From a virus, in IMG/VR virus record IMGVR_UViG_3300027843_000002, positions 1 to 43,811 of that record: a stretch of 43,811 bases of DNA; one strand, 5' to 3'. The notes beneath the pieces are model-generated. The model was not told the DNA's origin. It saw only the letters and a list, made by a program, of their open reading frames with translations, and ran no database searches. A program made the position numbers and the translations under genes. Positions 21,454 to 24,681 of the stretch are shown one piece after another (the stretch's first letter is position 1; each line of letters begins with the position of its first letter).

Positions 21454-21474
21454 TTGTATGGAGCGCTGAGCATA

Positions 21475-22167
21475 ATGAATTTACAAGAACTGGAATATAC
21501 GCGGATTGAACTGCGCCGCGCGCTGGCGGATTTATCAGGATCGACAAAAGGACAGCTGCAGGCGTTCAGTGAGCATCCACCAGCAGATAAGAATAAATAC
21601 CCCCGGCACCATCCTGAAATCGTCATGGAGGGTGGGGAAGGTAGTGGATCGAAGGTTGTAAAAACTCTGGCCACTCCGCTTTATGTTATTGAGACAAGGA
21701 GCCGTCGCCGACCTTTACCGCCTATTAAGGATGCGGAGTTCGCTTGTTCAGCATGGCGTCGTTCGGTCAATGGTCTGGGGGAGCATTTGCAGGCATGGGT
21801 GCGGTACTGCTATGGGCATGACCTCGCTTTCCGGTACCAGAGGTTAATGTGCCAGCACGTATGGGAAGAGTTCCAGCGTCAGCATAGCGGCAAAAAAATC
21901 CAGGACCGTGTCACTAAAAAACTGGTTGGGCTTGTTTGGCTGGCGGCGCAAGAAGTTGCTGCCTCGCGTAATAACGATACCTATCAAGAGTATGCTGGTG
22001 CAGCTCTGGCGCGCATGGTCAGCGTTGAGCGTTCCACCTGGCTTAGAGTGTATTCAGGCCACTGGGCGGCTTTCAAAGCGTCGTTTGCTGAAATGGACAG
22101 CCAGGCACTAAGCGAAATTTTGTCACGGTACGAAGAGTACCAAGAACTGAAAGTGGCGGAAATGTGA
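21475..22167 (+). CDS. Q: Late antiterminator Q
   Basis: A 230-residue protein of the phage antitermination protein Q family (PF06530). Recognisable are the start MNLQELEYTRIELRRALADL with STKGQLQAF, and the C-terminal WLRVYSGHWAAFKASF helix. Q binds DNA near the late promoter and modifies paused RNA polymerase so that it ignores terminators through the late operon. It is the last rightward early gene, and the candidate late promoter lies 31 bases after its stop codon. The ATG at 21475 is the family start; the ribosome binding site is weak. Confidence 0.9.
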   Translation: MNLQELEYTRIELRRALADLSGSTKGQLQAFSEHPPADKNKYPRHHPEIVMEGGEGSGSKVVKTLATPLYVIETRSRRRPLPPIKDAEFACSAWRRSVNGLGEHLQAWVRYCYGHDLAFRYQRLMCQHVWEEFQRQHSGKKIQDRVTKKLVGLVWLAAQEVAASRNNDTYQEYAGAALARMVSVERSTWLRVYSGHWAAFKASFAEMDSQALSEILSRYEEYQELKVAEM

Positions 22168-22197
22168 GGTAACTTTCACTAACTCCCTCAATTGGGC

Positions 22198-22226
22198 TTG
22201 CAAAATGCAACAAAATAAGCGATATT
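22198..22226 (+). promoter_or_regulatory. Candidate late promoter PR'
   Basis: TTGCAA (22198-22203) and GATATT (22221-22226) are 17 bases apart and lie immediately behind Q, where lambdoid late promoters are found. The transcript would meet a terminator after about 40-50 bases, as in lambda 6S RNA. A Q-binding motif could not be named. Confidence 0.5.
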
Positions 22227-22260
22227 TGAAGCTAATTTGATATCTTGCCAAAAGTATATA

Positions 22261-22282
22261 AACCCGCCACTGAGCGGGTTTT
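22261..22282 (+). terminator. tR'-like terminator, also ending the opposing moron gene
   Basis: AACCCGC (22261-22267) pairs with GCGGGTT (22274-22280), loop CACTGA, then TTTTG-TATTTT. It lies just behind the late promoter and directly downstream of the minus-strand 22288 gene; on that strand A/T-rich sequence follows as well, so it could act both ways. Confidence 0.75.
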
Positions 22283-22287
22283 GTATT

Positions 22288-22767
22288 TTAAAAAAGACCG
22301 ATAGCGCCACCGGCTATGGCCGTAATAAGTGGATGCTCGGCCAGCTTGCGCAGCAGCCCCTTTGCTTCTTCCTTTTGCTCGGTAGTAGCCTGAGAACTAT
22401 TAATGAGATTGTTCAAGGTTTCGATGCTAGTGGTAATCTCTTGGCGGTTATGATCTCCGATCTGAACATTGCCACCATGAATATTGATTTGCTGTGATGA
22501 AAAGGCAGGGACCGTTTTTTTAGGACCGACCTTAAGCTGAAAATGAGGGCCAAATCCAGCAATACCACGGTCGTGGAAGTTAGCTTTGTAAATTTCTTTA
22601 TGCTCTTCTTTTCCATTCGGCAAGATACGCATGACAGTATCACCATCATCGATGTCTGCCATTGGGTCATTCACAATGACCGTATCACCTGCAAACTTAG
22701 CTTTATAGGGACCAAGTTTTGACCCATCTGATTTTAAAATGAATGCATCATCTTTAGCTGATAACAT
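22288..22767 (-). CDS. Lysogenic moron with RHIM-like amyloid motif and hydrophobic tail
   Basis: A 159-residue protein encoded against the late operon. Residues 8-80 look like a small beta-rich domain (GDTVIVNDPMADI, GDTVMRILPNGKEE, GFGPHFQLKV). Residues 94-107 read INIHGGNVQIGDHN; the core Val101-Gln-Ile-Gly104 followed by xxN fits the RHIM-type amyloid signalling signature known from RIPK1/3 and bacterial amyloid-signalling proteins. A helical stretch (111-144) leads to a hydrophobic C-terminus (146-159, HPLITAIAGGAIGLF) that could enter membranes. GGAGG lies five bases before the ATG and it has its own sigma70 promoter. Function unknown; a prophage-encoded cell-death or exclusion factor is the leading idea. 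Confidence 0.8.
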   Translation of the reverse strand: MLSAKDDAFILKSDGSKLGPYKAKFAGDTVIVNDPMADIDDGDTVMRILPNGKEEHKEIYKANFHDRGIAGFGPHFQLKVGPKKTVPAFSSQQINIHGGNVQIGDHNRQEITTSIETLNNLINSSQATTEQKEEAKGLLRKLAEHPLITAIAGGAIGLF

Positions 22768-22825
22768 TTTTCCTCCATTGAATGTTTAAGCCAGCAATAA
22801 CTGGCAATTAACATTTATCGCTAAA

Positions 22826-22854
22826 CCTATACGGATGTAAGAGACTTCGATCAA
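22826..22854 (-). promoter_or_regulatory. Promoter of the RHIM-like moron
   Basis: Minus-strand TTGATC (22854-22849) and TATAGG (22831-22826) with a 17-base spacer, and a leader of about 50 bases to the ATG at 22767. No phage operator or LexA box overlaps it, so expression in the lysogen is expected. Confidence 0.65.
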
Positions 22855-22887
22855 TAAATTAGGATATATGCGAGGAAACGAAAAAAA

Positions 22888-23008
22888 AGCTGATGGTTAG
22901 AGTTATCAGTGATTCTGATCTGTTTTATTAAACGCCTCCGGACTGGAGGGAATCTGCTGTGGAAATGGGCGGCTGGAGGGTGTTGTAGCACCCGGCCAGC
23001 CATCAGCT
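22888..23008 (+). ncRNA. Structured RNA element A in late leader
   Basis: AGCTGATGG (22888-22896) is the exact complement of CCATCAGCT (23000-23008), closing a multi-branched structure. Inside are ATCAG/CTGAT, CCTCC/GGAGG, and GGCTGG-A-GGGTG pairing with CACCC-GG-CCAGCC. The GCACCCGGC segment before the closing strand recurs in elements B and C downstream. There is no coding frame of note. It would be transcribed at the start of the Q-dependent late RNA. Confidence 0.55.
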
Positions 23009-23093
23009 CATGCTTTCAGGTCACAAGCTAACCAAGGCCCATTGCTTTAGCGCAAAAGCAAAGAGAGCCTATCAGAGTTACGCTTATTGATCT

Positions 23094-24158
23094 ATGAAAA
23101 GTACTGTAAATATAAACAGTGTTGAGTTAGCCAACGCTGATAGCCTGGAATACATCGCCACTCTCCCTGACAACTCCATTGACCTAATAGTCACGGATCC
23201 CCCGTACTTCAAAGTGAAACCCAACGGCTGGGACAATCAATGGAAAGGGGATGAGGATTATCTTCGCTGGCTTGATATGTGCCTCGCACAATTCTGGCGA
23301 GTGCTTAAACCTGCTGGCAGTCTTTATCTTTTCTCCGGTCACCGCCTGGCGGCAGACATTGAGATCATGATGCGTGAGCGGTTCAACATCCTGAACCACA
23401 TCATCTGGGCTAAACCGTCGGGCCGCTGGAATGGCTGTAATAAAGAGAGCCTGCGCTCTTACTTTCCTGCAACAGAGCGCATCCTGTTCGCTGAGCATTA
23501 CAAGGGTCCGTATAAACCAAAGAGCGACGGGTACGCTGAGAAGGGAAGCGAGCTGAAGCAGCATGTAATGACTCCCCTAATTTCTTATTTCCGGGATGCA
23601 CGTGAAGCGCTTGGCATATCCTCAAAACAAATAGCCGATGCGACTGGAAAGAAGAACATGGTGTCTCACTGGTTCAGCGGTAGCCAGTGGCAATTACCGA
23701 ATGAATCAGATTACCGGAAACTTCAGTCCCTTTTCACGCAGGTAGCCATCGAAAAGCACCAGAACGGCGAACTGGCAACACCACACCACCAGCTGGTGGC
23801 TCTGTGGCATTCGTTGAATCGCAAATATTCAGAGCTGCTCGAAGAGTACAAATCACTTCGGCGGCATTTCTCTGTGACAGCTGCCGTGCCATATACGGAC
23901 GTATGGACCCATAAACCAGTCCAGTTCTATCCAGGTAAACACCCGTGCGAAAAACCCGCTGATATGTTGCGGCAAATTATCAACGCCAGCAGCCGGCCCG
24001 GCGATGTGGTAGCTGATTTCTTTATGGGCTCGGGATCAACTGTTAAAGCAGCCATTGAACTGGGCCGCCAGGCCATCGGAGTAGAACTGGAAGAGGATAG
24101 ATTTAGCCAAACAGCTAATGAAATAAAGGGCCTTATAGATCAACCTGTACCCCGCTAG
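23094..24158 (+). CDS. Beta-class DNA methyltransferase (N6-adenine or N4-cytosine) with HTH-like insert
   Basis: A 354-residue enzyme. The catalytic DPPY (35-38) comes early and the AdoMet-binding DFFMGSGST motif late, the order of beta-class enzymes. Between them, roughly residues 163-196, is a helix-turn-helix-like insert (ALGISSKQIADATGKKNMVSHWFSG) that probably forms part of the recognition domain. It is the third methyltransferase in this genome and lies in the late leader between structured RNA elements, where morons are common. It may protect phage DNA late in infection or act from the prophage. No cognate restriction enzyme is present. Confidence 0.88.
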   Translation: MKSTVNINSVELANADSLEYIATLPDNSIDLIVTDPPYFKVKPNGWDNQWKGDEDYLRWLDMCLAQFWRVLKPAGSLYLFSGHRLAADIEIMMRERFNILNHIIWAKPSGRWNGCNKESLRSYFPATERILFAEHYKGPYKPKSDGYAEKGSELKQHVMTPLISYFRDAREALGISSKQIADATGKKNMVSHWFSGSQWQLPNESDYRKLQSLFTQVAIEKHQNGELATPHHQLVALWHSLNRKYSELLEEYKSLRRHFSVTAAVPYTDVWTHKPVQFYPGKHPCEKPADMLRQIINASSRPGDVVADFFMGSGSTVKAAIELGRQAIGVELEEDRFSQTANEIKGLIDQPVPR

Positions 24159-24266
24159 GAATTGGCATCAGAACGGATATATTTGTCTGATTGCATTGTG
24201 TATTCTCCAACTCATGCATATGCTTCTAAAGCATCCTGCGGAATGGATGTTTCTGAAAGCGATTTT

Positions 24267-24381
24267 GTGGTGGATCCCCCTAAGCGGAGGGGCGATTCAG
24301 CAGGACATTTCTCCAGAGTGTCCAACCAGCGCGCGGAAATTAATGCTGTAAACATTTCCACCGGGAGGCACCCGGCACCAC
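24267..24381 (+). ncRNA. Structured RNA element B in late leader
   Basis: GTGGTG (24267-24272) pairs with CACCAC (24376-24381) to close the element. Inside are CCCC/GGGG (24277-24292), GGACA/TGTCC (24303-24323), GGAAAT/ATTTCC (24335-24359) and CCGGG/CCCGG around AGGCA (24361-24375). Element C repeats the first and last hairpins almost exactly and has a compensating change in the closing stem. A strong terminator follows 30 bases later, so a discrete RNA of roughly 170 bases could be made. Confidence 0.65.
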
Positions 24382-24410
24382 ACCCTGAGTTTTTGCCAAC
24401 TTAGCTTCTT

Positions 24411-24440
24411 ATGCCTGCTTGTCCGAGCAGGCATTTTTTT
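24411..24440 (+). terminator. Strong terminator behind RNA element B
   Basis: ATGCCTGCT (24411-24419) pairs perfectly with AGCAGGCAT (24426-24434), followed by seven T. It lies inside the late operon before the lysis genes, so late transcription must pass it through Q-dependent antitermination. Confidence 0.88.
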
Positions 24441-24493
24441 GCAACGAAAATCACTCATTGACCGAATGAATGCATCTTGATTAAGTTATGCAT

Positions 24494-24599
24494 GTGATGA
24501 ATCCCCCTAAGCGGTGGGGCGCCTGGTTAACTGCTATCTGCAGGTATGCGCGCGACTTTGATAACCAGAGATAAGTCACCGGGAGGCACCCGGCATCAC
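24494..24599 (+). ncRNA. Structured RNA element C in late leader
   Basis: GTGATG (24494-24499) pairs with CATCAC (24594-24599); element B has G-C at the position that is A-T here. CCCCC/GGGG with loop TAAGCGG, a long arm CTGGTTA (24523-24529)/TAACCAG (24562-24568) capped by CTGC/GCAG, and CCGGG/CCCGG with the identical loop AGGCA complete a three-way structure. Similar sequences precede lysis genes in other lambdoid phages as I recall; the role is unknown. No terminator follows directly. Confidence 0.65.
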
Positions 24600-24681
24600 A
24601 TCCTCAAAAAAACGTTTTGTCGACCGCCAGGTTCTGCATCGTCATATACACTTCTAAATGAAACAATTTGAGAGGTGAATT

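Follow-up and report, generated by a model that had tools for sequence, protein, structure and literature searches.

Introduction

Morons located between Q and the lysis genes are familiar from other phages, the Shiga toxin genes and the porin of phage PA-2 among them. Herpesvirus RHIM proteins act as decoys against necroptosis. In bacteria, amyloid signalling is so far known between NLR receptors and effectors, mainly in filamentous species. The BASS motifs, in the account of Dyrka et al. 2020 as cited in two other papers (PMC7889193, PMC8086366), were defined from neighbouring genes for an NLR and a BELL effector, mostly in filamentous bacteria, and BASS3 forms fibrils (PMC7885112). Whether signalling amyloids occur in NLR-independent bacterial proteins is an open question according to a review which also suggests that RHIM may act from a central position (PMC7889193).

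Here we analyse a phage gene whose product has a RHIM-type motif. The window, by which we mean the whole stretch of 43,811 nucleotides under analysis, is the 43.8 kb record of a temperate phage with a lambdoid layout, a virus of gut bacteria. Its gene for a 159-residue protein had been predicted, from the sequence alone, to be a moron for a RHIM-like amyloid signalling protein.

Results

A gene under purifying selection in an optional cassette

The original prediction placed the gene at 22288-22854, opposite the late operon and directly after Q, with its own promoter and ribosome binding site. The placement is correct, since Q ends at 22167 on the plus strand, and the plus-strand lysis genes come after the DNA methyltransferase (Table 1). 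A good ribosome binding site is also present. Within the predicted range the open reading frame, which starts with ATG, ends short of the right-hand limit, and the ~87 bases up to 22854 are upstream DNA.

Table 1. Coordinates of the features of the locus, as positions in the window
Feature	Position	Strand	Basis
Antitermination protein Q, left neighbour	21454-22167	+	PF06323, E 3.4e-40
Bidirectional intrinsic terminator in the gap between Q and the gene	22260-22281		Terminator scan, both strands
Variable cassette (moron)	22287-22929		Missing as a block in the E. coli CX21 prophage
RHIM-motif protein, 159 aa (phrog_16834)	22288-22767	-	Open reading frame, PHROG, relatives, selection
Gly/Ala-rich hydrophobic C-terminal tail HPLITAIAGGAIGLF, residues 145-159	22291-22335	-	Hydropathy, charge counts
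Two predicted helices, residues 105-124 and 129-143, with EEAKxLL block	22339-22455	-	AlphaFold2, conservation
RHIM-type motif INIHGGNVQIGDHN, residues 94-107	22447-22488	-	Conservation, Pfam RHIM in homologues, PDB matches
Predicted N-terminal six-stranded beta domain, residues 6-82	22522-22752	-	AlphaFold2, pLDDT ~90
Ribosome binding site GGAGG	22773-22777	-	Sequence; 5 nt before ATG
Inverted repeat GCCAGCAATAACTGGC upstream of the gene	22790-22805		Sole copy in window, 0.06 expected
DNA methyltransferase, right neighbour	23094-24158	+	PF01555, E 1.6e-43

The protein is matched over its full length by phrog_16834 (E 3.8e-55) and in its C-terminal part by phrog_5789, both annotated 'unknown function'. 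Relatives of the gene are found in 24 phage contigs at 76-100% identity. Compared with the diverged phage relatives, dN is 0.10-0.15 with silent sites saturated, and residues 90-112 show 0-2 replacements against 9-14 silent changes in the same comparisons. The open reading frame is therefore a real gene under strong purifying selection. It is rare in E. coli (10/5426 genomes).

We compared the window by blastn with the E. coli CX21 prophage (L028), and found matches at 22001-22286 (94%) and 22930-23200 (88%) with none between. Because the flanks match and the interior does not, the moron is the block listed in Table 1; this empty-site comparison supports the predicted moron status. In CX21 the slot between Q and the methyltransferase holds a different gene on the opposite strand (L028 4167-4358), encoding a winged-helix-like protein of 63 aa. 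The cassette was not found in most related prophages. Where Enterobacteriaceae phages have the gene, it occupies this slot, runs against the late genes and precedes holin and lysozyme, with late regulators that differ from phage to phage (Q, DUF1133 or another antiterminator family, partly by inspection).

The region 22168-22286, which follows Q and includes the terminator, is conserved in CX21, where a terminator-like hairpin occupies the same place. Since this conservation is seen in a prophage without the gene, a Q-dependent late promoter may sit there. If it does, late transcription would cross the gene in antisense, which we consider plausible. The promoter attributed to the gene itself was not confirmed, in that a consensus scan upstream of the gene gave no recognisable sigma-70 site, though the upstream blocks are conserved in near relatives. 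The inverted repeat in this region has the layout GCCAG-N6-CTGGC, is roughly kept in near relatives, and is possibly an operator or a 5' hairpin.

Two RNA features lie nearby on the plus strand. The segment 22888-23010 folds far better than its shuffles (z -4.2), the 5' arm falling within the variable cassette and the 3' part within the conserved leader that precedes the methyltransferase. Between the methyltransferase and the lysis genes, 24238-24444 and 24465-24641 are tandem matches to the STnc100 sRNA family (75 and 74 bits), in which divergence hides a plain direct repeat.

A RHIM-type motif conserved across the family

The core of the motif is VQIGDHN at residues 101-107 (V101, Q102, I103, G104, D105, H106 and N107), with the pattern [VI]-Q-[VILFY]-G-x-x-N of RHIM (PF12721). 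V-Q-I-G-x-x-N is nearly constant across the 24 phage relatives. Conservation of the motif in homologues had been named beforehand as a test of the RHIM-like assignment, and this test was upheld, with Q102, G104 and N107 invariant in 32/32 full-length homologues at identities down to 32%. No stretch of the family is more conserved than the core, whose relative entropy is 3.56 bits per column versus 2.39 in the N-terminal domain. Given this highest conservation in the core and the few replacements at residues 90-112, the motif goes beyond chance.

When a profile of the family was compared with the PDB (177,635 sequences), the best match was the RHIM of human RIPK1, marginal at E 0.046 with 20 residues aligned, and RIPK3 and a viral ribonucleotide-reductase-like RHIM protein were among the lower matches. 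A second profile, from a largely different set of modules, had RIPK1, RIPK3 and the same viral protein among its PDB matches. Pfam RHIM was found at E<=1 in 17/32 homologues, and at least six of the homologues tested exceed its curated cut-off of 20 bits (L117 26.4, L126 25.4, L125 24.3, L124 23.6, L128 23.0 and L042 22.2 bits). The window protein taken alone has no Pfam RHIM match, so membership in PF12721 is a statement about the family. At that level the prediction of a RHIM-like motif is supported, and RHIM homology is well supported.

Searches of Pfam, NCBIfam, PADLOC and the PDB with the single 159-residue sequence gave no match; weak similarities to DUF1542 and SpoIIIAH fall on the helices, lie below the cut-off and were rejected. 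We found no earlier report of RHIM with phage or prophage in the open-access journal literature covered.

A mobile C-terminal module with exchangeable N-terminal domains

In the AlphaFold2 model, built with 32 sequences, strands are predicted over the N-terminal region with high confidence, in agreement with the beta-rich domain expected there. Residues 85-99 are predicted to be disordered and helices are placed at 105-124, 129-143, 146-152 and 154-158. The motif comes out mostly disordered in the monomer, which is expected of a RHIM and proves nothing. The hydrophobic end was likewise correctly anticipated: none of the 32 homologues has more than one charge in its last 14 residues, and in nearly all of them the tail is uncharged. 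Fold searches with the whole model and with the N-terminal domain alone returned no significant match, and a resemblance to a chymotrypsin half-barrel (TM 0.59-0.62, E 0.08-0.1) was not accepted as an assignment.

Using the last 70 residues as query, we found relatives in Gamma-, Beta- and Deltaproteobacteria, Lentisphaeria and Opitutae, on one plasmid and in many more phages. Their constant part consists of the motif, the helices with EEAKxLL, EHPL and the Gly/Ala-rich tail, and is joined to at least four kinds of N-terminal domain. One is the window protein's own beta domain, of which L060, L080, L123 and L136 have a distant variant. By eye, two more resemble a winged helix (L029/L040/L043 and L035/L113/L114), and L066 and L137 represent another. 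The C-terminal unit is a mobile module. Sequence searches with the other N-terminal kinds were uninformative, and the pentatricopeptide matches of the L113 domain were discarded as low-information matches to designed repeats.

On the Phaeobacter plasmid pP63_f, a gene (L170 3908-4486) encodes the same beta domain and hydrophobic end with an Asn-rich linker, INNIQGNNARVNINSTDNS, in place of the RHIM core. This linker may be another assembly motif, and it counts against the explanation that we favour below. A gene annotated as resembling SOS-response-associated peptidase (SRAP) lies near this plasmid gene, and an SRAP-like gene, recognised by eye, lies near the RHIM gene in two related phage contigs (L124, L128).

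Relatives of the module in the company of anti-phage genes

In the gammaproteobacterial genome G584 a full-length homologue starts 38 bp past a SIR2-APAZ/short-Argonaute operon (PADLOC 6.8e-214 and 1.7e-205). Elsewhere module genes adjoin TerY-P genes (L082, L043), an AbiU-like gene (L114), PDC-S39 (L037), a DUF262-type nuclease and cytosine methyltransferase (L033), a PD-T4-7-like gene (L032) and a NucC-like nuclease (L137). At E<=1e-10, the 100 neighbour ORFs of 20 loci gave matches to 94 PADLOC models, and the 83 ORFs in 20 control stretches of those genomes to 5. Loci were counted because many PADLOC models overlap on one gene. Strong matches (E<1e-60) occur at 5-7/20 loci and 0/20 controls (p 0.01 for 6/20), in a test that is rough because the control stretches were hand-picked from few contigs of the same genomes. 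The strong loci mapped are L081, L082, L043, L033 and L037, with PD-Lambda-1 and PD-T7-1 not assigned to a locus. At the loose cut-off of E<=1e-10, the difference between at least 8/20 loci and at most 5/20 controls is not significant (p 0.25).

Defence islands gather many unrelated mobile genes. The SIR2/Argonaute operons nearest to that of G584 are without the module gene, which is therefore an optional neighbour there, and an obligate three-gene system was rejected. The gene upstream of L136 was not counted, because its likeness to SIR2 is by eye only, with no PADLOC or PDB match. PADLOC models matched neither the 159-residue protein nor the G584 homologue. The picture is one of island company with no fixed partner.

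Absence of a second RHIM protein from the window

The original prediction started from amyloid motifs that couple sensors to cell-death effectors in bacteria, and proposed a search of host genomes for proteins sharing the motif. We found no second ORF with the motif, nor any other RHIM protein, in the window, and RHIM above the Pfam cut-off in 0/246 Enterobacteriaceae genomes; the module occurs in 4/295. These searches speak against an obvious host partner and against the classical two-gene arrangement. With no second motif protein in the window and RHIM above the cut-off absent from those genomes, signalling between two components, one of them a host receptor, is unlikely, and homotypic action of a single chain is more likely.

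No NLR gene with a matching motif lies beside the gene in the window, and the relatives stand alone except in Vreelandella (G005). There, two RHIM-module proteins with differing N-terminal domains (L078 3727-4347 and 5892-6398) flank one gene within 2.7 kb; they lie 1.5 kb apart and neither is an NLR by inspection. In a co-evolution comparison their motifs are identical at 14/28 positions, versus 12 with other loci, and the two proteins are possibly a pair. In the window protein the motif is central, after the beta domain and before the helices, and does not form the C-terminus of a BELL-type helical effector.

Discussion

We propose, with our confidence about evenly divided, that this prophage moron encodes a RHIM-type assembly protein acting as a single chain, and that the protein most probably serves to defend the lysogen against other phages. 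Its N-terminal beta-barrel domain would be exchangeable and serve for input or binding. The disordered RHIM-type stretch 94-107 would nucleate an amyloid-like polymer conditionally, upon a trigger. The C-terminal helices and the uncharged Gly/Ala-rich tail would form the shared output; on clustering, they would enter or perturb the inner membrane, or bring in further chains. That the tail acts on the membrane we put forward only as a hypothesis, and its 15 residues, short for a membrane span, count against it. The lysogen would be defended by abortive infection or superinfection exclusion, a role indirectly supported by the anti-phage genes that adjoin the relatives. Since antiviral systems of bacteria are found next to relatives of the gene, the resident virus may have in it an amyloid-based defence made of one protein.

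The swapping of N-terminal domains on a constant assembly module would also suit an adaptor scaffold that is not itself an effector. The RHIM-type polymer would gather an enzyme bound by the N-terminal domain, with the helices and tail aiding packing; in the islands this enzyme could be a nuclease, SIR2 or kinase encoded next door, and in the phage it would be a phage or host protein. Enzyme neighbours do differ between loci, and animal and fungal RHIM proteins include adaptors (PMC7889193). However, no partner is constant, the phage genes are alone between the late regulator and the lysis genes, and SIR2/Argonaute operons exist without the module gene. We regard such a scaffold as a serious but unlikely alternative.

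That many phages carry the gene at a fixed place, beside Q and the region of late control, suggests instead a regulator of late transcription or lysogeny, in which a RHIM-shaped loop would cap a helix in a small oligomer and form no amyloid. A helix indeed begins inside the motif in the monomer model. This explanation is improbable in view of relatives found away from Q, on plasmids, in integron-like stretches and in chromosomal islands, of a RHIM similarity that spans 20 residues, past the core, and of the lack of the cassette in most related prophages.

Decoy RHIMs of animal viruses (PMC7375649) set a precedent for counter-defence, whereby the phage protein would join and poison RHIM-type polymers with which a host or a rival phage defends itself. 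Phage and chromosomal island proteins do have the motif in common, but the family is rare in Enterobacteriaceae hosts, as the counts above show for both the module and Pfam RHIM, and the islands themselves hold full-length orthologues of the same architecture, leaving a decoy with little probability. Finally, a coincidental likeness in a short, low-information motif would fit the lack of a Pfam match for the window protein alone and the modest profile E-value, but is very improbable given that two profiles retrieve RIPK1, RIPK3 and the viral RHIM from the whole PDB set, that at least six homologues exceed the Pfam cut-off and that the motif is kept across the kinds of N-terminal domain.

Returning to single-chain assembly in defence of the lysogen, a broader idea, which we find attractive but doubtful, is that phages and defence islands share NLR-independent single-chain RHIM signalling, in which any one of several N-terminal sensors would set off polymerisation of the shared RHIM-type module, and the hydrophobic tails thus clustered would kill or exclude. 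If true, the gene would be a one-gene phage counterpart of the necrosome. Small, phage-borne, present in E. coli prophages and provided with natural variants of the N-terminal domain, the family is a direct test case for NLR-independent amyloids. Should the protein polymerise and protect lysogens, RHIM-type assembly would belong to everyday phage warfare in laboratory-tractable hosts, and the result would bear on the age of the human necroptosis motif and the route by which it spread.

The locus shares with the known morons between Q and the lysis genes its slot and its build as an optional cassette, and differs from them in that the 159-residue gene runs opposite the late genes and that its product is of RHIM type. 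With BASS3 and other BASS it has in common a RHIM-like motif in a bacterial setting and a proposed role in cell death. Unlike BASS, the family consists of one gene without an NLR and with a central motif, and it occurs in phages and unicellular Proteobacteria, whereas the hosts of BASS are mostly filamentous. RIPK1, RIPK3 and the herpesvirus RHIM proteins have the same V/I-Q-I/V-G-x-x-N core within ~20 aligned residues; in contrast to them, the 159-residue protein is phage-borne, is without a kinase or other RHIM partner, and continues after its motif into conserved helices and a hydrophobic tail.
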